A stretch of 64,000 bases of DNA from the NCBI GenBank assembly GCA_017554305.1, contig JAFZIN010000032.1, forward strand, positions 1 to 64,000, read 5' to 3'. Position numbers and translations under genes: made by a program. Below the pieces are notes generated by a model. That model searched no databases and was not told the origin of the DNA. It was given only the letters and a program-made list of their open reading frames with translations. Below are positions 5,454-14,039 of the stretch, piece after piece; position 1 is the first letter of the stretch, and every line of letters begins with the position of its first letter. The stretch comes from Bacteroidales bacterium (GTDB taxonomy: Bacteria; Bacteroidota; Bacteroidia; Bacteroidales; UBA932).

Positions 5454-8117
5454 ATGGGAGAGAGAAATCTTAATACACCGTTAATGAAGCAGTATGTGCA
5501 GTTCAAAGCACAGTACCCGGAGGCACTCCTGCTAATGAGAGTGGGAGACTTTTATGAGGCCTACGGGGAGGATGCCCTTACGGTGAGTAAGGTCCTTGGA
5601 ATAGTTCTTACCAAACGTTCCAACGGAGTGCCGGACTCCGTAGAACTTTGCGGATTTCCTCACCACTCTCTGGAAAACTATCTTCCACGGTTGGTCCGTG
5701 CCGGTTACAAGGTTGCAGTGTGTGACCAGCTGGAAGACCCCAAGATGACCAAAACCATTGTAAAGCGCGGAGTTACAGAACTCGTTACCCCGGGCGTTGC
5801 CTACAACAACGATATTCTGGAGCAGGGCCGCAACAACTATCTGGCATCCTTTGTCTTTGAGGGCAAGGAGGCCGGCGCCGCCTTTTTGGATGTCTCCACC
5901 GGAAGTTTCAAAGTTGCACAGGGCGGGCTGGATTTTATGGATCTGCTGCTTACGGATATGGCTCCCGGTGAGATTCTCATTTCCAAGGGCTTTGAACCCG
6001 GCTTCAAGAAACAGTTTGGAGAGAAATGGTACCTCACCCCAATGGACGAGTGGGCTTTTGTGGAGGAGGCCTGCTTTGATAAACTTGAGAAACAGTTTGG
6101 TGCAAAGGCACTTAAGGGGTTTGGTATTGAGAAGATGCGCCTTGCAAAAATTGCCGCCGGCGCCATACTCTTCTACCTCCAGCAGAATAGAATATCAGAT
6201 ATTGCCAGCTTTGACGCCGTCACCATCAAAGGCCAGAGCGGCACATTCCATATCAACTCCATTTCCCGCATAGACCGAGGCAACTTTGTCTGGTTAGACC
6301 GCTTCACTATCAAGAATTTGGAGATTTTTAACTCTTTTTCTCCCGATGGTGTATCTCTTATGGATGTGGTAAATCACACCTCTTCACCAATGGGCGAGCG
6401 TATGCTCCGTTCGTGGCTTGCAATGCCGCTTATAGATGCGGAGCAGATAGAGAAAAGATATGATGCGGTTGAGTTCTTTGCAAAGGATGATGAACTCCGC
6501 TCTCAACTGATGGAACATATTGACAGCGTGGGAGATGTGGAGAGAATACTTGCGCGCTGCTCAACCGGAAAGATAATGCCGAGAGAGATGGTGCAGCTGA
6601 GGCGTTCTCTTTCAAATATGCAACCTATCGCGGAGTTAATAAGAGAGAAAGGCGGTGAGCAGCAGCTAGTTGCAAAGGTTCCGGCAATGAGCGGGTTCTT
6701 TAAAGACCTTGCAGAATATAGCGCTTTGGATAAGCTGATTGGGAGTAAGCTGATAGATAATCCGGCAGCGCAATTCGGTAAGGGTGATATAATTGCAGCG
6801 GATGTAGATGAGCAGTTGGATTCGCTCAGAAAAATTTCCAGAGAGGGAAAAGATTACCTTCTGGAGCTGCAACAAAGGGAGAGCCAGAAGACCGGAATTC
6901 CTTCACTCAAAGTTAGTTACAATAACGTATTCGGTTACTATCTTGAGGTCAGAAATACCTACAAAGCCAACGTTCCAGGTGACTGGATCAGAAAGCAGAC
7001 GCTTGTTTCTGCAGAGAGATATATAACTCCGGAACTCAAAGAGTATGAGGAGAAAATACTGGGTGCAGAGGAGAAGATTGTTCAACTGGAACAGAAGATT
7101 TTCTTAGATCTTGTTCTTGAGATTCAGAAGAGAATTCCTCTCATCCAAAAGTGCTGCATTGCAGTTTCCAATCTTGATTGTCTTGTTGGCTTTGCACACC
7201 TTGCCAAGAAGAACCATTACTGCCGTCCAAAGATGGACAACTCGCTTGAGATTGATATTAAAGAGGGGCGGCATCCGGTGCTTGAAACAAGGATGGCTCC
7301 GGGTGAAGAGTATGTTGCCAATGACCTGTTCTTATCTAATGAGGCTCAGCAGATTATAATACTTACCGGTCCTAATATGGCAGGTAAATCTGCACTGCTG
7401 CGTCAGACTGCTCTCATTGTTCTTCTGGCTCAGTGCGGCTCCTTTGTTCCGGCAAAGAGTGCGCGTATTGGAGTGGTTGATAAGATCTTCACAAGAGTGG
7501 GTGCATCAGATAACATTTCACAGGGTGAATCTACCTTTATGGTTGAGATGTTGGAGAGTGCCTCCATACTTCACAACCTCTCAGAGAGAAGCCTTGTTCT
7601 TTTGGATGAAATAGGAAGAGGAACCAGCACATTTGACGGTATGTCAATAGCATGGGCCATTGTGGAGTATCTGCACAACAACAGAAAGGCTCCCGCAAAG
7701 ACCATCTTTGCAACTCACTATCATGAACTTAACGAGCTTGAGAGTATATACCCAAGAGTTAAAAACTTCCATATTGAGGTTAAGGAATCGGGCAAGAATA
7801 TTGTCTTCCTCCGCAAGATGAAACGCGGCGGCGTTGCCCACAGTTTTGGTATTCACGTTGCCCGTCTGGCCGGTATGCCGGAAGAGGTATTAAACTCCGC
7901 AGAGAAGACGCTCCTAAAACTGGAAAAGCAGGAGAAACAGCGCCAGGCTTCCAATCCAAAAACGGAAGATCAGATGCAACTCTCCTTCTTCCAGTTGGAT
8001 GATCCAACCCTCTCCGCCATCAAGGCCAAACTTGAGGCCGCAGACCTCAACTCCATGACCCCGCTCTCCGCCTTTGACCTCCTCCGCTCCATGAAATCCG
8101 AACTCGGCCTGGATTAA
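5454..8117 (+). CDS. mutS: DNA mismatch repair protein MutS
   Basis: Full-length MutS1 of 887 residues; recognises mismatches and starts repair with MutL. The N-terminal mismatch-binding motif F-Y-E is at residues 33-35. The ABC-type ATPase at the C-terminal side has Walker A GPNMAGKSA (about residue 639, the Bacteroidota variant of GPNMGGKST), DEIGRGTSTFDG (about 718) and the TIFATHYHEL switch. The composite lever and clamp domains fill the middle, and the C-terminal tail follows the usual helix-turn-helix. It is transcribed alone, away from the beta-lactamase-like gene, and ends 14 bp before the convergent accessory lipoprotein gene, which marks the left edge of the accessory island. Confidence 0.98.
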   Translation: MGERNLNTPLMKQYVQFKAQYPEALLLMRVGDFYEAYGEDALTVSKVLGIVLTKRSNGVPDSVELCGFPHHSLENYLPRLVRAGYKVAVCDQLEDPKMTKTIVKRGVTELVTPGVAYNNDILEQGRNNYLASFVFEGKEAGAAFLDVSTGSFKVAQGGLDFMDLLLTDMAPGEILISKGFEPGFKKQFGEKWYLTPMDEWAFVEEACFDKLEKQFGAKALKGFGIEKMRLAKIAAGAILFYLQQNRISDIASFDAVTIKGQSGTFHINSISRIDRGNFVWLDRFTIKNLEIFNSFSPDGVSLMDVVNHTSSPMGERMLRSWLAMPLIDAEQIEKRYDAVEFFAKDDELRSQLMEHIDSVGDVERILARCSTGKIMPREMVQLRRSLSNMQPIAELIREKGGEQQLVAKVPAMSGFFKDLAEYSALDKLIGSKLIDNPAAQFGKGDIIAADVDEQLDSLRKISREGKDYLLELQQRESQKTGIPSLKVSYNNVFGYYLEVRNTYKANVPGDWIRKQTLVSAERYITPELKEYEEKILGAEEKIVQLEQKIFLDLVLEIQKRIPLIQKCCIAVSNLDCLVGFAHLAKKNHYCRPKMDNSLEIDIKEGRHPVLETRMAPGEEYVANDLFLSNEAQQIIILTGPNMAGKSALLRQTALIVLLAQCGSFVPAKSARIGVVDKIFTRVGASDNISQGESTFMVEMLESASILHNLSERSLVLLDEIGRGTSTFDGMSIAWAIVEYLHNNRKAPAKTIFATHYHELNELESIYPRVKNFHIEVKESGKNIVFLRKMKRGGVAHSFGIHVARLAGMPEEVLNSAEKTLLKLEKQEKQRQASNPKTEDQMQLSFFQLDDPTLSAIKAKLEAADLNSMTPLSAFDLLRSMKSELGLD

Positions 8118-8131
8118 GGCGTTCGATTGAG

Positions 8132-9529
8132 TTAGAAGCCGAGCACTGGCCTGACACTATGTATGTCCCCATTCGGGTCGTAGCTCCAATAGTCTTTGTA
8201 GAAGTACCACGAGCGGTAATCAGTATTCCACGTAGCAGACCAATATCGGCTTTGGCTAAATGCCGCGCCTCCGGCACCGGTGATATAGGCATTCACGTTG
8301 TCATCGTAAGTCTGGCCGTCCCAATAAGGAGCAGTCGAGCCGAGGTTGGTGAATATCACCTCGTAGTCGCTCTTCGGCGCCACGGCCCAGTTCGACACGG
8401 CGGTTGCGCCCAGCGCGGTGTAGCTCGTCAGCTTAACGCCGCGTGCGGCATCGTCTGGCAGCACCCTCAGCCTGGTGCCGGCGTAGGTGGGCCAGGCCCA
8501 GCTGAAGATGGCGTCCCACGTCTGCGGCGTAGCGTCCTGCAGGGCGAGAATAAGGCCGTGGCCTGTCTCGGTTACCTTACCCAGAATACCCACGGCGGTG
8601 CAGCCTGCGGGTACGGCGGTCTTAGCAGTGTGCAGATGGCCTGCGGCGCACACCACCTTGCCATAGTCAGACGAAGTGGCAGCACTCAGCAGCGGGTAGC
8701 TCGGAGCAGCACTCCTTGTTATGTTATAGATGTGGCCAGCTTCGAGCACTTTGCTGCTATTGACGAGGGTGATGGCATTGCCACCCACCGTCAAGGTGCA
8801 GTTGTTTAAGTCTTCTCCATAACTCAGGCCTATCGCAAATGTAGCATTGCCCGAACCGTCGGTTGTTACATTCTTATTAACCGTAGTTGTCGAATAACTA
8901 AACACCACAGCGACCTCAGTACTGGCCGATAAACCGGTGATGGTGAAGTTGAGGATGGCATTGCACGGAGTCAGGGTAAAGCCACTAGAATACGTATAAC
9001 AATACTCATAGCTGAGCTGCTCTACTCCAGCAGCCTTTGAAGTGGCAAAAGCGTTGTTATAATCGGAGCCTACGTATGCTGAATATGTACCTTCGTTTTC
9101 TAAAGTCAAAAAGTCATAGCTTTCGTAGCCGGCAGGCAGCAGCGTAGCTTGAGCACCACCATCTTGAGAGAGAAGTTCATCGACGGTGCCTGTCCACTCA
9201 GTTTGGGTAGTAATGGTGCCGCTGAATGTTCCGTCGGACACCCATGTCAGCGTGCCGGCAAAATTGTAATCACCTTCATGATATGAGCCCTCCACAAACA
9301 GCTTGTCTCCAGCGCTGAATTCAAGTTTCTTGGTTCCTTCGTTATACGAGGCGCGAGTGGTGCCGCCGTTGCCCTGACGGGTCACGTTGACGGTTACGGG
9401 CAGTTCATAGCCTTTCTTTACTATGTCCTCTTCTTGGACGGTGCTTTCTTTCTGGCAAGCGGTAGAGAAAAGCATGGCGGGCACGAGCATAGCCAGCGCC
9501 AATGCTTTGAAGATATTCTTTGTTTTCAT
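8132..9529 (-). CDS. Fimbrillin-like surface lipoprotein with C-terminal FISUMP/DUF1566-like domain
   Basis: A 465-residue predicted surface lipoprotein. The start at 9529 is chosen because it begins a clean signal peptide with lipobox STAC (about residue 25) 13 nt after the upstream microprotein stop; longer starts overlap that gene. The N-terminal half resembles fimbrillin-like proteins (repeated beta-strand segments, KLEFSAGDKLFV, LSASTEVAVVF). The last 40 residues (RYWSAT, then aromatic/Asp/Asn-rich residues, then SVRPVLGF) match the end of C-type-lectin-like FISUMP or DUF1566 domains. GC content and codon choice (GTC, CCG, GGC) appear to differ from neighbouring housekeeping genes, suggesting transfer. 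Likely role: pilus or surface-binding component; the ligand is unknown. It is translationally close to the microprotein at 9543. Confidence 0.75.
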   Translation of the reverse strand: MKTKNIFKALALAMLVPAMLFSTACQKESTVQEEDIVKKGYELPVTVNVTRQGNGGTTRASYNEGTKKLEFSAGDKLFVEGSYHEGDYNFAGTLTWVSDGTFSGTITTQTEWTGTVDELLSQDGGAQATLLPAGYESYDFLTLENEGTYSAYVGSDYNNAFATSKAAGVEQLSYEYCYTYSSGFTLTPCNAILNFTITGLSASTEVAVVFSYSTTTVNKNVTTDGSGNATFAIGLSYGEDLNNCTLTVGGNAITLVNSSKVLEAGHIYNITRSAAPSYPLLSAATSSDYGKVVCAAGHLHTAKTAVPAGCTAVGILGKVTETGHGLILALQDATPQTWDAIFSWAWPTYAGTRLRVLPDDAARGVKLTSYTALGATAVSNWAVAPKSDYEVIFTNLGSTAPYWDGQTYDDNVNAYITGAGGAAFSQSRYWSATWNTDYRSWYFYKDYWSYDPNGDIHSVRPVLGF

Positions 9530-9542
9530 TGCTCTTCTGTTT

Positions 9543-9677
9543 TTAAATGTCCTCTTCATCCCAAGTTCCATCCATTGTGGCATCCACATCGCCACTTATA
9601 CAAATAATACATTCAGTCTCCACCCCAAAAACTCTTGTTAAGGGAGCATCATAGAGTTCTTTTTGTTTTGTTTCCAT
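9543..9677 (-). CDS. Microprotein A (44 aa), partner of the fimbrillin-like lipoprotein
   Basis: A 44-residue ORF starting METKQKELYDAP and ending in a very acidic tail (DGTWDEEDI). It is supported as a gene by its likeness to microprotein B at 12331-12492: both share ETKxKE, a Y-x-AP element, alternating hydrophobics, then I-[IV]-C-x-S-GDVD, and both sit directly upstream of a fimbrillin-like lipoprotein gene and about 120 bp downstream of the same kind of leader. There is no signal peptide or membrane helix. The single Cys is at residue 26. The function is unknown; a leader peptide, chaperone-like partner or precursor of a processed peptide are all possible. Confidence 0.65.
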   Translation of the reverse strand: METKQKELYDAPLTRVFGVETECIICISGDVDATMDGTWDEEDI

Positions 9678-9843
9678 AAGCTTATGTATTTGTATGATTA
9701 GATTCGAGTTAACGTATGGGCACACGAAAAGCGGCGGCACTTCTCTCGAAGGTCGCGACTATCGTTATGTAAGCTATTGATTAAAAGATGGTTATACCCC
9801 CCCCTAAATGCGGAAGGAGCTTTAGAAGAAAGGATGTCTTTAA
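9678..9843 (-). promoter_or_regulatory. Leader A: 5' leader with G8 tract, related to leader B
   Basis: Three blocks resemble leader B in the same order: 9701-9732 next to the microprotein (about 25 of 32 positions alike, including GGGCACA), 9772-9804 ending in a C8 run (plus strand 9797-9804), and a looser block at 9805-9842. On the transcript strand the G8 can pair with an upstream CUCCUUCC (8 bp with wobbles, 7-nt loop). The non-conserved middle (9733-9771) contains the small inverted repeat CTTC-TCTC-GAAG at 9740-9751 and the palindrome GTCGCGAC at 9752-9759. No clear TAnnTTTG box is seen upstream, so it may be read through from the DUF4160/DUF2442 pair. Confidence 0.55.
9797..9804. repeat. 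Homopolymer C8 tract in leader A
   Basis: A run of eight C on the plus strand (G8 on the transcript strand), 120 nt upstream of microprotein A. The same length of run stands at the matching place in leader B. Confidence 0.9.
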
Positions 9844-9871
9844 CTAACATATGAATGTACGATTCTTCCGA

Positions 9872-10282
9872 CTAACTTGCAATGGATAGGTATTCGTTGC
9901 CAAGCTTTTCTATGCAACGCATAATCTCCTGCTCACGTTCTGGAGAAGGTGTTTTGAAGCCATTGATATAGCTTCGCATCAGCGAGGCGCTGAAGCCGAA
10001 CTTCTGGGCAAAGCCGCTCACGTTGATTTCCGGGTGCGTGAGGAAAAAGTGTTGGAGGCGGGTGGGCTCGGCATCGGGATAAAGGAAGCTCTCAAAACTG
10101 ATGTCTTCGTCCAGATCGTGCCAATGGATACCGATGGTACTCATCTCGTAGCGGGCCCGCTGCTCATCCGTCGCCTTACGGAGATGGGAATACCACAGAA
10201 GGGATTGGCGATAGGTTTTCCCATCGTCCCCCAGGCCGTAGATCCAGTCCCTGTCAAACCATATTTTACTGATTGTCTTCAT
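9872..10282 (-). CDS. DUF2442 protein with C-terminal HTH, putative antitoxin-like partner
   Basis: A 136-residue protein. The start MKTISKIWFDRDW at 10282 is chosen because it gives the DUF2442-type N-terminus and overlaps the upstream DUF4160 gene by 17 nt, typical of coupled translation. Residues 1-75 resemble DUF2442 (WIYGLGDDGKTY, then aromatic-rich stretch ending SFESFLYP). Residues about 90-130 resemble an XRE-like helix-turn-helix (VSGFAQKFGFSASLMRSYING). DUF4160-DUF2442 pairs have been predicted to be toxin-antitoxin-like modules, but direct function is not established as far as I know. The gene ends about 30 nt before leader A, so both may share a transcript. Confidence 0.7.
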   Translation of the reverse strand: MKTISKIWFDRDWIYGLGDDGKTYRQSLLWYSHLRKATDEQRARYEMSTIGIHWHDLDEDISFESFLYPDAEPTRLQHFFLTHPEINVSGFAQKFGFSASLMRSYINGFKTPSPEREQEIMRCIEKLGNEYLSIAS

Positions 10283-10523
10283 TGTCGGTCTTGAACAGTT
10301 CATACCAACGATTGATGATGATGTCCGTATTCTCGGCAATCATCCGCTCGATGCGCTTGAGGTCGTTGGCTTTGATGTTATGCACATATTCCATCACGAA
10401 ACCCTCACCGTCCCAATTGAACTTGGCATCCCCGTTATGTCCCCGCACGTGAACGTGGATGGGCTCATGCTCCCGGGAGAAGAACATGAAGATGAAACCG
10501 TATTGTCTGAATAACTCGGGCAT
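10266..10523 (-). CDS. DUF4160 family protein, putative toxin-like partner
   Basis: An 85-residue protein. It begins MPELFRQYGFIFMFFSREHE and carries the conserved HEPIHVHVRG element near residue 20, which is the hallmark of DUF4160. The start at 10523 is chosen since the family begins with MPxxF and a strong promoter box (10539-10546) lies 15 nt upstream; the longer reading would start inside the promoter region. It overlaps the DUF2442-HTH gene downstream. No catalytic site is known for the family. Codon use resembles the adjacent accessory genes rather than the housekeeping genes. Confidence 0.75.
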   Translation of the reverse strand: MPELFRQYGFIFMFFSREHEPIHVHVRGHNGDAKFNWDGEGFVMEYVHNIKANDLKRIERMIAENTDIIINRWYELFKTDNEDNQ

Positions 10524-10538
10524 AGTACTATCTTTTTG

Positions 10539-10569
10539 CAAATATAGGTAACAAAAATGAAACCTGCAA
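10539..10569 (-). promoter_or_regulatory. Promoter of the DUF4160/DUF2442 pair
   Basis: The reverse strand has TTG (10567-10569), a 20-bp spacer and TATATTTG (10539-10546), a full match to the Bacteroidota -33/-7 arrangement. The predicted transcript start is about 10 nt before the ATG at 10523. Confidence 0.7.
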
Positions 10570-10824
10570 GAGTTTGGGCTAAATAATTACCTAAACAATG
10601 AAACACGGAACTTTGCGGGTGAGCCGTTTTTTCTCTTTTGTTTTCATGTGTTGTTATTTATAGATTGCGTTTAATTGAAAATCCCTGAAAAATGGTAAGA
10701 AAAATTATATTAACATTTAGGACTCAACATTAAGACAAATATATTAAAAAATCCATAAAGTCCTATACTATTCGGGTATTACCACTCTTTCAAATTTAAA
10801 CTCTGCCTCAATTACCCCCGTTTC

Positions 10825-10863
10825 TACTCCACAATTTTCTATAAAAATCTGGAGTATACTCCA
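10825..10863. repeat. Three-armed inverted repeat TACTCCA / TGGAGTA / TACTCCA
   Basis: TACTCCA (10825-10831) is followed after 18 nt by the perfect 14-bp palindrome TGGAGTATACTCCA (10850-10863). The middle arm can pair with either neighbour, allowing two exclusive hairpins, or the arms can be half-sites of a dimeric DNA-binding protein. Confidence 0.7.
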
Positions 10864-10910
10864 TAAATTTACAGGAAAATCAGGACCATACTTACAATTT
10901 CAAAAGGAGG

Positions 10911-10925
10911 GGTACAAATTGTACC
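10911..10925. repeat. Palindrome GGTACAAATTGTACC
   Basis: A perfect 15-bp inverted repeat with 7-bp arms around a central A. Operator-like; the cognate protein is unknown. Confidence 0.75.
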
Positions 10926-10957
10926 TACCCTTTGCTTTTCTGTAGAAATGGCGGTTA

Positions 10958-10975
10958 TCCTCGGTAGGCCGAGGA
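10958..10975. repeat. Hairpin TCCTCGG-TAGG-CCGAGGA
   Basis: A perfect 7-bp stem with 4-nt loop, just upstream of the tandem operators of the HTH gene. There is no T-run, so it is not a clear terminator. Confidence 0.7.
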
Positions 10976-10984
10976 GAGCCCAAT

Positions 10985-11016
10985 ACAATATAAATATTGT
11001 ACAATACAAATATTGT
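10985..11016. promoter_or_regulatory. Tandem 16-bp operators of the HTH repressor
   Basis: Two abutting copies of ACAATAYAAATATTGT (10985-11000 and 11001-11016). Each is an inverted repeat with ACAATA/TATTGT arms around 4 nt. They cover the -33 element and the whole spacer of the downstream promoter, as expected for autorepression by the encoded HTH protein. Confidence 0.75.
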
Positions 11017-11026
11017 TATAACTTTG
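10996..11026 (+). promoter_or_regulatory. Promoter of the HTH gene
   Basis: TTG (10997-10999), 19 bp, then TAACTTTG (11019-11026). The predicted transcript start falls within a few nt of the ATG at 11034, so the mRNA may be leaderless. Both operators overlap it. Confidence 0.72.
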
Positions 11027-11033
11027 TAAAAGA

Positions 11034-11336
11034 ATGAGTAAAGCAACAAAATATTTAGAGGCGCATCAATCATCTACGCCATCACATTGGCGTGAAGATG
11101 CGCAGTGGCGCAGAGACAATGATTATTGGCTCAAGTATGCACAACAGATTACCATACAGGTAATGCGCGCTATGGATGAACAATCTGTAACTCAGACAGA
11201 ATTAGCCAAACGTATTGGCTGCACACAACAATATGTTTCCAACCTGTTAAAAGGCAGTTCCAATATGACACTGGAAACCATAGCACGTTTAGAGAAAGCA
11301 CTGAAACTAGATATCCTTAAAACAGCACTTCAATAA
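11034..11336 (+). CDS. XRE-family HTH regulator (HigA-like), orphan
   Basis: A 100-residue cytoplasmic DNA-binding protein. The helix-turn-helix spans about residues 50-90: VTQTELAKRIGCTQQYVSNL then NMTLETIARLEKAL. The first 45 residues are charged and Trp-rich. It looks like the antitoxin of HigBA-type systems, but no toxin gene is found upstream or downstream, where the neighbours are non-coding DNA and a terminator. The start ATG is the only in-frame one before the HTH core and fits the promoter. The tandem operators upstream suggest that it represses itself. It may be a remnant antitoxin or a stand-alone regulator of the neighbouring surface loci; that link is inference. Confidence 0.8.
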   Translation: MSKATKYLEAHQSSTPSHWREDAQWRRDNDYWLKYAQQITIQVMRAMDEQSVTQTELAKRIGCTQQYVSNLLKGSSNMTLETIARLEKALKLDILKTALQ

Positions 11337-11368
11337 AAATCCGGGGCGTATAACAGCCCCGGATTTTT
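11335..11368. terminator. Bidirectional terminator after the HTH gene
   Basis: A perfect 13-bp stem AAAAATCCGGGGC / GCCCCGGATTTTT with an 8-nt loop, flanked by A and T runs. It serves the HTH gene and probably the convergent lipoprotein gene ending at 11404. Confidence 0.9.
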
Positions 11369-11403
11369 AATTGCTGTATAGAGTTGTTATTAATAATCTA
11401 CGA

Positions 11404-12318
11404 TTAGTCCAAAGGATGAGATGCTGTTATGTCTGTGAATTTGGATATATCAACCTTTACACCATGGTAAGATGTGTATGAGGTTGGTATAGCTGTTGTC
11501 TTAGTGAAACTATATACCTTCTTAGCGGTTTTGTCAACCAAATAGATGGTATAATCGTGAGAATCATTGTCTACCGAATAATAAAAATTAAATGCAATAC
11601 CATCTGGATTACTTACGCCATTAGACCAATTATTGGAAGAAGTAATACCAGAGCAATTGCCTACACTGGAAACATCGAAATACGATCCACTCCAATATAA
11701 AGCTTCACCAACCCAAACGTTATTTCCAAAAGTTAAGGCGTAGCGGTCTGGTGTAGCCTCCAATCCGGTAACCACAACCTGAAGTCTGCTCATAAACTCC
11801 CATCCGCTAATGGTTCCGGTAATCTTTTTTGTTCCAGTGTTATAACCGTATGCAGAAGACATTTTAAAGCAGACGGTTGGCACTGTTCTAGGAAAGCAGT
11901 TATAAGGCCACTCGCTTAATTTAAAACTTGTCCCATTTGGAGCGTAAGCATAAGAATTGTCCTTTGCAGAAGCAAACCAAGAGTTGGTGCTCTCGTAAAT
12001 AGCATTGAACGTTCCGCTTAAGCCAAGCAAACTTTCATCAACTTCTGAAGAAGACCATCCACCTGCAGTTTTGGTGAGAACTAAATGAGGAGCCTCTTTC
12101 CAATAAGAATAGTGACCTGCCGGAACGCTGTTAAACCATATATTAATTTTATCACCAACACTCCAACCAGTCTTAATAGCCTTAGAATCTACATAAGGAT
12201 CATTTACTGTGATATCAACTGTAACCTTAGTTGTTTTCTTAGGAGCTTGTTCTTTGCTGCAAGATGCAAAGAGTGAGAGAGCCGCAATGGCTGCTGTAAA
12301 CAATATAATCTTTTTCAT
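11404..12318 (-). CDS. Fimbrillin-like surface lipoprotein
   Basis: A 304-residue predicted lipoprotein with signal peptide MKKIILFTAAIAALSLFASC (lipobox FASC). The mature part follows the pattern of fimbrillin-like proteins of Bacteroidales: KVTVDITVNDPYVDSKAIKT, WSVGDKINIWF, then beta-strand-rich sequence with many Ser, Thr, Asn and Tyr. It is shorter than the lipoprotein at 8132 and lacks the FISUMP-like C-terminal domain. The start at 12318 lies 12 nt after the microprotein B stop; an alternative ATG two codons upstream is possible. It forms a two-gene unit with microprotein B behind leader B. Probably a surface adhesin or pilus-related subunit; not proven. Confidence 0.72.
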   Translation of the reverse strand: MKKIILFTAAIAALSLFASCSKEQAPKKTTKVTVDITVNDPYVDSKAIKTGWSVGDKINIWFNSVPAGHYSYWKEAPHLVLTKTAGGWSSSEVDESLLGLSGTFNAIYESTNSWFASAKDNSYAYAPNGTSFKLSEWPYNCFPRTVPTVCFKMSSAYGYNTGTKKITGTISGWEFMSRLQVVVTGLEATPDRYALTFGNNVWVGEALYWSGSYFDVSSVGNCSGITSSNNWSNGVSNPDGIAFNFYYSVDNDSHDYTIYLVDKTAKKVYSFTKTTAIPTSYTSYHGVKVDISKFTDITASHPLD

Positions 12319-12330
12319 AATCATCTAGTT

Positions 12331-12492
12331 TTAAAAGAAAAAGGTCCATGAATCTTCAGTTGCTCCGTCAAACGGATTGTTAGGATCAACATCGCCGCTG
12401 GCGCATACAATACCTTCAGAGGAGATTTCCCAAACGGAAATATCCGGGGCGAGGTAAATTGCCTCTTTGTTTTTTGTTTCCAATTTCTTCAT
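12331..12492 (-). CDS. Microprotein B (53 aa), partner of the fimbrillin-like lipoprotein
   Basis: A 53-residue ORF starting MKKLETKNKEAIYLAPDISV with an IVCASGDVD core at residues 28-36 and an aromatic end (SWTFFF). It aligns with microprotein A across ETKxKE, the Y-x-AP segment and C-x-SGDVD, with divergent tails. There is no signal peptide and no membrane helix. The start at 12492 agrees with the A/B alignment and with the leader distance (117 nt from the C8 run versus 120 nt in A); a longer in-frame reading runs into the leader and is rejected. Function unknown. Short ORFs of this style appear common before surface-protein genes in Bacteroidales, from memory only. Confidence 0.68.
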   Translation of the reverse strand: MKKLETKNKEAIYLAPDISVWEISSEGIVCASGDVDPNNPFDGATEDSWTFFF

Positions 12493-12548
12493 AGTAATTT
12501 TTGATTTATTGTGTTTGATTTGATTTAACAAAAGGGCACAAAAAAGCA

Positions 12549-12568
12549 GATGATGTGGAAACATCATC
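12549..12568 (-). terminator. Possible attenuator hairpin in leader B
   Basis: Perfect 8-bp stem GATGATGT / ACATCATC with a 4-nt loop, followed on the transcript after TGC by a run of six T. The AT-rich stem makes it a weak terminator, so regulation by attenuation is a guess. Confidence 0.4.
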
Positions 12569-12608
12569 GATGGAATAATATAAAGCTCTGATTATAAGAT
12601 GATTATCA

Positions 12609-12616
12609 CCCCCCCC
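12609..12616. repeat. Homopolymer C8 tract in leader B
   Basis: Eight C on the plus strand, preceded by AAGATGATTATCA; leader A has AAGATGGTTATA before its own C8. Both runs have identical length in this assembly. Confidence 0.9.
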
Positions 12617-12689
12617 AGAGAGGCTGGAGAGCGTGTCAGAAAAAGATGTGTTCTTTATCCACCCAATCATTTCTGACTCATTAACCAAG

Positions 12690-12718
12690 CAAATATACAA
12701 AAATGCTCTTAATTTCAA
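12690..12718 (-). promoter_or_regulatory. Promoter of the microprotein B / lipoprotein unit
   Basis: The reverse strand has TTG (12716-12718), an 18-bp spacer and TATATTTG (12690-12697). The predicted transcript would carry a leader of nearly 200 nt before the microprotein start at 12492. Confidence 0.55.
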
Positions 12719-12722
12719 ATAG

Positions 12723-14039
12723 TTATTTGGAGTTCATGGCGGTGACGGGGTTGAGATTGGCGGCGGTCCAGGCTGGGAGGACTCCGCTGAGGACGCCTAT
12801 GGCTGAGGCAATCAAAACTCCGGCTATGACATTTTGGAAGGAGAGGTGAACATCATATTCTGCAGGAATTGGGGCGGCGGTGATGATAATCCAGACAAGG
12901 AGGACTCCAACTAGAGCACCCGCTACGGCTAAGATAAGGGCCTCTGTAAGGAACTGGGTCATAATGAAGTACCTCTTTGCACCCAAAGCCTTTTGAATAC
13001 CGATAATCTTGGTTCTCTCCTTAACGGAAACAAACATTATGTTGGCAATTCCAAAGCCGCCAATCAGAAGGGAGAAGGCGGCAATTATCCATCCAACTTT
13101 CTGAATTACACCCATTATCTGACCCAGCATGTTTTCCAGCACATTGATGGAGTTAATGGAGAAGTTATTTTTCTGTCCAACCCTCAGCCTGCGGCACTGT
13201 CTCATAAGGTGTTTGATTTCTGCGGTAAAATCTTCTACAGATACATCCTCTTTTGGAACGGCGTAGAGTTCTCCGTTCATATTTCTGAAATGGAAGATGT
13301 TTTTGCCTGTGTTATAAGGGAGTATACAGTTGCCGTCTGTCTCCATCATATTTACCATACTCTCTCCCTGTTTGGCAATTACACCTATAACCGTTACGCT
13401 GTATCCGTTTACTTTTATCACTTTACCCACAGGGTTTTCCTCTCCGAATATAGACTCCGCCAACCCCTTTCCAAGAATTGCAATAGGCTGGGCACTCTCA
13501 AGTTCCGTTGGAGAGAAAACTCTTCCGCTCTCCATATCCAGGTTGATAACTTTATCCAATCCGCCAATAACGTTCATTACCCAAACTCCGGAAGATGAAC
13601 TGCGGTTGTATTTTACTGTGGCACTGTTCATTACGGAGTAAAGAAAATCATCTCCCTTCTTCGAATTGTGCTTCAGATATTTGTAATCATCTAAAGAAAC
13701 GTTAGGTCTTTTTATGTACTCCCACCACTTATACTCCGTTCCAACACTTCCGTCCAGAGCAATGTTTCCCTCATCATCTTCCACCCCCATTGGCCAGGAA
13801 GAAACCTGCAGCATCTTGCTGGACCCCAGCGTCTCAAAGCCCCTCTTTACATTGGAGCGCAGTGCATCTACCGCTGTAAAGATTGCTATGATTGTAAAGA
13901 TACCAATGCTCACACCCAGCAATGATAAGAAGGTGCGCAACTTGTTGCCCTTCAGTTCGTTAAAAGTAAAAGTCACACCTTCCTTCAACTGCACTGAAAC
14001 AACCCTCAATCTCCCTGTTAAGCTCTTCTTTCCGTCCAT
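12723..14039 (-). CDS. ABC transporter permease, MacB/FtsX type
   Basis: A 438-residue inner-membrane permease. A first helix near residues 35-58 is followed by a large periplasmic MacB-type domain (about 60-310) and three C-terminal helices (about 315-430); the FtsX-family end contains KERTKIIGIQKALGAKR. Such permeases work with a LolD/MacB-like ATPase in lipoprotein release or export; no ATPase gene is adjacent, and the nearest candidate is the one at 24221. It follows rsmA on the same strand with an 8-bp gap, and marks the right edge of the accessory island. Confidence 0.88.
   Translation of the reverse strand: MDGKKSLTGRLRVVSVQLKEGVTFTFNELKGNKLRTFLSLLGVSIGIFTIIAIFTAVDALRSNVKRGFETLGSSKMLQVSSWPMGVEDDEGNIALDGSVGTEYKWWEYIKRPNVSLDDYKYLKHNSKKGDDFLYSVMNSATVKYNRSSSSGVWVMNVIGGLDKVINLDMESGRVFSPTELESAQPIAILGKGLAESIFGEENPVGKVIKVNGYSVTVIGVIAKQGESMVNMMETDGNCILPYNTGKNIFHFRNMNGELYAVPKEDVSVEDFTAEIKHLMRQCRRLRVGQKNNFSINSINVLENMLGQIMGVIQKVGWIIAAFSLLIGGFGIANIMFVSVKERTKIIGIQKALGAKRYFIMTQFLTEALILAVAGALVGVLLVWIIITAAPIPAEYDVHLSFQNVIAGVLIASAIGVLSGVLPAWTAANLNPVTAMNSK

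Follow-up and report, generated by a model that had tools for sequence, protein, structure and literature searches.

A G run in a small leader gene, probably a random on/off switch for surface-protein genes in rumen Bacteroidales

Two minus-strand loci with a shared layout

We analysed a stretch of 64,000 nucleotides of a Bacteroidales bacterium (GenBank assembly GCA_017554305.1, contig JAFZIN010000032.1, positions 1 to 64,000), which is called the window in the following. Its minus strand carries two loci, A and B, each with a leader containing a run of eight G, a gene for a microprotein and a lipoprotein gene. An earlier note, made from the letters of this DNA, had described this twin arrangement, and it was confirmed at the positions given there. 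The note had missed two parts: a small open reading frame (ORF) that enters each tract, and a hairpin downstream of the tract. The parts of both loci are as follows.

12690..12697, minus strand: Bacteroidota-type -7 box of leader A, TATATTTG, 27 nt upstream of the leader ORF start
12506..12670, minus strand: leader ORF A, 54 amino acids, ATG start, in the reading-on frame in the present assembly
12609..12616, minus strand: G8 run A, within leader ORF A; the ortholog in genome G423 has G9
12549..12568, minus strand: hairpin A, terminator-like with a T-rich tail, flagged by the terminator scan
12331..12492, minus strand: microprotein A, 53 amino acids, with LETKNKE and CASGDVD
11404..12324, minus strand: lipoprotein A, 306 amino acids, 85% identical to its ortholog in G423
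9698..9850, minus strand: leader ORF B, 50 amino acids, ATG start, in the reading-on frame in the present assembly
9797..9804, minus strand: G8 run B, within leader ORF B
9724..9765, minus strand: hairpin B, stable, tail not U-rich, not flagged as terminator-like
9543..9677, minus strand: microprotein B, 44 amino acids, with METKQKE and CISGDVD
8132..9529, minus strand: lipoprotein B, 465 amino acids; the N-terminal 280 residues are related to the lipoprotein of locus C18, the C-terminus is unrelated

From the end of the G run to the microprotein ATG there are 116 nt (A) and 119 nt (B), and from the microprotein stop to the start of the lipobox-bearing protein 6 nt (A) and 13 nt (B). The shared ETK/CxSGDVD motif occurs twice in the window, and two copies were found in 0 of 100 shuffles. 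A known RNA family was ruled out as the identity of the leader, because no Rfam leader or riboswitch family matched at gathering score in the window, with only sub-threshold matches in 9400-12760.

The leader ORF and its frames

The leader is not confined to the window. The genome it belongs to (G000) is a metagenome-assembled genome (MAG) of 1.82 Mb in 32 contigs with 89.5% completeness. It has 13 tracts of G7 or longer, nine of which are of the leader type: eight canonical leaders (A, B, C15a, C18, C27a, C28a, C28b and C29a) and C29b, a short variant that lacks the upstream start codon. The tracts C3, C15b, C27b and C30 proved unrelated when their loci were read. Counting only runs of at least G8 gives nine, namely seven canonical leaders, C29b and one run within an ORF. 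Each of the eight canonical leaders is followed by a gene for a protein whose N-terminus, judged by eye, is lipobox-like. This recurrence supports the earlier suggestion that the leader has a role separate from the adhesin sequence.

Among 39 genomes of the same genus, strong matches to the leader model (E<1e-10) were found only in G000 (8), G019 (4) and G423 (5), which gives 17 canonical leaders in total. Weak partial matches were found in 13 further genomes, and one leader in G004 has no G run. The model which found G423 (R1) was built from 23 leaders including all of those in G000 and G019; two of the five G423 leaders were already in this set (as L245 and L257), so that only three G423 loci are new.

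All 17 leaders have an ATG or GTG at 46-54 nt upstream of the G run, and its frame is open into the run. Start codon and open frame are found in 8/8 leaders of G000 (shuffles: mean 0.6, max 4) and in 4/4 of G019 (shuffles: mean 0.3, max 2); in G423 they are present in 5/5, all at 54 nt, a count made without shuffles. Past the run, 13 of the 17 leaders have one frame that stays open for at least 80 nt and two frames that stop within 20 nt, compared to a mean of 1.44 and a maximum of 6 in shuffles. The open frame crosses the hairpin, which lies about 30-75 nt after the run. The number of G, as read from these sequences, thus sets the length of the leader ORF; a frame switch in the G run had not been proposed in the earlier note. 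The start-codon frame reads on in seven of the 17 leaders (A, B, C28b, C29a, H13b, H9 and G423 C8) and stops early in ten.

Codon positions 1/2/3 of the leader ORF have about equal shares of the variable columns (7/8/5 in the set labelled A, 9/6/8 in B, 14/11/12 in C and 15/15/16 in D), so it seems to be the translation of the leader ORF that is kept, not the peptide. A conserved leader peptide (NxLIINxL after the run) had looked coding in G000; it was rejected, as this frame often has stops in 81 matches from across the order, directly after the first N in 8 of them, and is also disfavoured by the upstream half, which shows no third-position excess.

Allowing one mismatch, 10 of 12 leaders carry a TAnnTTTG box 25-29 nt upstream of their ORF start (shuffles: mean 0.57, max 4); the same holds for 23 of 28 leaders in a larger set, part of which was picked by eye. 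A sigma-70 scan of the leaders showed no excess (10 found, shuffle mean 9.0), as expected for a host from the Bacteroidota. When the hairpin was scored against shuffles, 8 of 12 leaders reached rank 2 of 40 or better; the scoring used part of the scan's window sizes, identically for real and shuffled sequence.

By its profile matches the microprotein is a member of a large and mostly leader-free family. The profile (8 rows, 41 genomes searched) matched in 15 genomes, with 13 matches in G000, 16 in G019 and 17 in G011. Only 12 of 53 matches at E<=0.01 in fetched loci have a G run of at least 6 within 330 nt upstream, in a scan that misses the interrupted tract of G019 C9. Locus C15a has a canonical leader and no microprotein. 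Leader and microprotein are therefore separable, and the idea of an obligate module of the two, as the earlier note had it, was not supported. Nor was its label 'fimbrillin-like' for the lipoproteins borne out by sequence searches against Pfam, NCBIfam and PDB. Lipoprotein A has a match below the cut-off to the N-terminus of the PG1828-family lipoproteins, and some lipoproteins end in Lcl_C-like (below the cut-off) or Laminin_G_3 domains.

Matched loci, neighbouring genes and occurrence in the order

Four loci could be matched between genomes by their flanks; the compared genomes are different species. The G run differs at three of the four. Leader A (G8) and its counterpart G423 C18 (G9) have flanks identical at 99/109 and 117/118 positions, and G019 C16 (G9) and G423 C8 (G8) at 96/110 and 115/118. 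G019 C9 has an interrupted run (GGTGGGGGC), whose long frame still contains three Gly codons; its counterpart G423 C20 has G7. The fourth pair, C28a of G000 and G019 C13a, has G7 in both. In a comparison of 14 pairs, not all of which are matched loci, run length differed in nine.

At three of the four loci a replaced or strongly diverged lipoprotein gene follows the conserved leader, which accounts for the pattern of a leader kept alike beside a diverged adhesin. Lipoprotein identity is 85% for A and G423 C18, 28% for G019 C9 and G423 C20 and 30% for C28a and G019 C13a; for G019 C16 and G423 C8 the match is confined to the first 70 residues. In G019 C13a the upstream context of C28a (91%) is joined to the cassette of C27a (87% on the DNA level). 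On sequence grounds, this junction points directly to an exchange inside the shared leader.

Two sets of genes adjoin the window loci. A mutS gene (5454-8117, plus strand, five MutS domains) and lipoprotein gene B have their 3' ends 14 nt apart; MutS-type repair can influence the slippage of runs in other bacteria. Leader B is immediately preceded by a DUF4160 and a DUF2442 gene (9872-10541, minus strand), a pair with weak resemblance to a DhiT-type toxin-antitoxin pair. A similar C-terminus also precedes leaders C28a and G019 C13a.

A codon-aware motif of the run and the block following it was positive in 9 of 393 genomes of the order, and a reversed control in none. Searching the GTDB collection gave 84 stretches, of which 80 were listed; 81 matches were parsed in these 80 loci. 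Among the 80 stretches listed, 79 have Bacteroidota names and one (L226) is Texcoconibacillus. The matches are mixed: some lie on the same strand before secreted-protein genes and others are in reverse orientation. A leader-ORF start was found in 16 of 40 matches with a same-strand gene or contig end (3.4 expected) and in 2 of the remaining 39 (2.6 expected); the same-strand list was made by hand, 2 of the 81 matches were dropped for short upstream sequence, and three of the 16 duplicate loci of G019 or G423. A further 16 order-wide leaders were picked by eye, and their count (15/16 with a start codon) was not used. A microprotein is clear downstream in 12 of the 81 matches and weak in 2.

Further leader-like loci are L132 (G029, two copies) and L216 and L217 (G168), sets of paralogous leaders in which an ORF enters a run of G9-G11; in G168 an apparent terminator lies downstream. 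In L242 (Heminiphilus faecis AM35, around 4512) a G9 run lies in a leader 63 nt upstream of a SusC-like gene, and an upstream ATG ORF enters the run outside the long frame.

Other G runs belong to different arrangements. When 12 loci with the codon-aware motif were read, several were poly-C (opposite strand) or poly-G within signal peptides. L177, L185, L191 and L197 (G180) and L178 (G070) have a poly-C run on the other strand, apparently in the signal-peptide region of secreted-protein genes, and these are possibly ordinary contingency loci. L174 and L183 (G285) and L175 (G087) encode related secreted proteins whose apparent signal peptides contain the poly-G run, and the frame varies among copies. 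The tract G9TAA was rejected as a general marker of the leader: it occurs in 62 of 198 genomes, and many of 30 loci read and 20 fetched are unlike the leader, some with the run just upstream of a -7 box. In L207, L208, L209 and L220, secreted-protein genes are preceded by a likely -7 box with a G9 run immediately upstream of it; a promoter-spacing switch, unlike the leader, is possible there.

A phase-variable attenuator and its alternatives

A phase-variable leader is well supported at the level of sequence, which shows the geometry of the leader ORF, its frame logic, the run differences between genomes at matched loci, the multi-locus family, and the divergence or replacement of the lipoproteins. 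For how the run would act, an attenuation step is the likeliest mechanism. Transcription would begin just upstream of the short leader ORF, which starts about 52 nt ahead of the G run. Slipped-strand mispairing would alter the number of G, and this number would decide the frame of the ribosome past the run. In one of the three frames the ribosome would continue, usually for 80-130 nt, across the hairpin of a premature terminator and keep it open, so that the operon of microprotein and lipoprotein would be transcribed; the long form would thus be the ON state. In the other two frames the ribosome would meet a stop within about 20 nt, the hairpin would form and transcription would end early. We consider it reasonably likely that the leaders are such phase-variable attenuators, in which slipped-strand phase variation is coupled to transcription attenuation.

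Several observations weigh against this account. The frame logic fails in 4 of the 17 leaders; C28b and G423 C11b have a second frame open across the hairpin, and the long frame of G019 C9 and its G423 ortholog ends 55 nt past the run. The 17 leaders are mutually related, so the counts are not independent, and the run lengths are MAG consensus values. Hairpins of C27a, C28a, H13a and H13b are no stronger than those of shuffles, the tail has at least 6 T in its first 8 bases in only 5 of 31 hairpins, and hairpin B is among those whose tail is not U-rich. The -7 box is missing from its usual position in leaders B and C18. Furthermore, the block that follows the run shows strong conservation for which the attenuator model has no need, and across the order it also occurs with in-frame stops.

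The long leader ORF could instead bring ribosomes near the next start, so that the switch would act on the translation of the microprotein and not on transcription. Such translational coupling would suit the position of the long frame (or the better of two), which in 16 of 17 leaders leaves 8-44 nt to the next start and in C18 overlaps it, and the order-wide locus L283, where the long frame runs directly into the microprotein. However, the gaps between long frame and start range from -29 to 46 nt with a hairpin at a conserved position between them, and the T-run terminators of A and C15a would be left unexplained. We regard this alternative as unlikely.

Somewhat less likely still is an RNA or DNA element, in which the run pairs with an upstream pyrimidine stretch or the block binds a protein, and the leader ORF is incidental. 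The pairing of the upstream arm with the run is slightly better than in shuffles (mean z -0.87 for n=14 leaders, -1.03 for n=80 order-wide), and a consensus fold has 7 pairs between them. The block lies 14-28 nt past the run (window 9770-9784, for example) and is found elsewhere also in reverse orientation before genes. It fits WATCAANNNNTTR, which we take to be the IHF binding consensus, exactly in 5 of the 8 leaders of G000 (shuffles: mean 0.04) and in 9 of the 17 overall, so that it is putatively IHF-like. Run and block occur together across Bacteroidales, as the motif search with its empty reversed control indicated. Nevertheless, such an element would leave unexplained why the start codon keeps a fixed distance, why the two other frames hold stops and why the leaders are in mixed frames.

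It is improbable that the leader is kept alike merely as a homology arm for the exchange of lipoprotein cassettes. The matching leaders and flanks at loci with a diverged or replaced lipoprotein, together with the junction in G019 C13a, would fit such an arm without any switch function; yet the upstream sequences of the leader ORF are unlike between subfamilies, while start position and open frame are kept. Least probable is slippage of RNA polymerase or the ribosome, giving mixed output from every allele in place of heritable slippage of the DNA: the G7-G10 runs lie within an ORF and G019 C9, with its interrupted tract, is locked in the long frame, but run lengths are unequal at most of the matched loci.

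The attenuator reading has a described counterpart. In the excerpts of Danne et al. (2014; PMC3894217) available for comparison, GCAGA repeats in a leader ORF of the S. gallolyticus pil1 locus set the length of this ORF, and the longer peptide opens a premature terminator; pil3 is reported there with the same layout and logic. According to these excerpts, the likeness is that repeat number sets leader frame and length and that surface adhesins are controlled, and that the short form stops well before the stem-loop (by at least 28 nt) while the long form ends near, within or beyond it. The repeat unit is a GCAGA pentamer in that account (PMC3894217) and a G homopolymer in the Bacteroidales leaders. 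Moreover, Pil1 and Pil3 are two pilus loci in Firmicutes, whereas a single Bacteroidales genome has eight canonical leaders, with a Bacteroidota-type promoter box, and downstream a microprotein and varying lipoproteins. Parts and distances fit the Pil1 logic, and we claim membership for the sequence features only.

Homopolymer contingency runs typically sit in the regulated gene or its promoter. Those of Neisseria, Campylobacter and Helicobacter resemble the leaders, as far as the sources consulted in part describe them, in having length-changing runs in genes for surface structures, but the Bacteroidales run lies in a separate leader ORF. As in trp-type attenuation (as discussed in the excerpts of PMC3894217), the position of the ribosome on a leader ORF would govern a terminator; trp-type attenuation is driven by tRNA charging, whereas in the Bacteroidales leader mutation would be the driver. 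According to excerpts of PMC11868660, the phase variation known in Bacteroidales is mostly by DNA inversion, and the invertible promoters and genes of Bacteroides described there would share with the leaders stochastic surface variation in the same order. They switch by inversion, the leaders would do so by run length. No printed record of a G-run leader element in Bacteroidota was found in searches of the open-access full-text literature.

Taken further, the loci may form a combinatorial surface switch, with at least eight loci per genome that share one leader type and are each set independently by their G run, new lipoprotein cassettes recombining behind an existing switch, and a related G-run element preceding secreted-protein genes in other Bacteroidales families. 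We put this forward tentatively, at slightly below even chances. If it is true, cells of one population would carry differing sets of surface proteins without DNA inversion. The frame state could be read directly from metagenomes, which would allow the idea to be tested on a large scale. The attenuation logic known from Streptococcus would then have arisen, or spread, far outside the Firmicutes.

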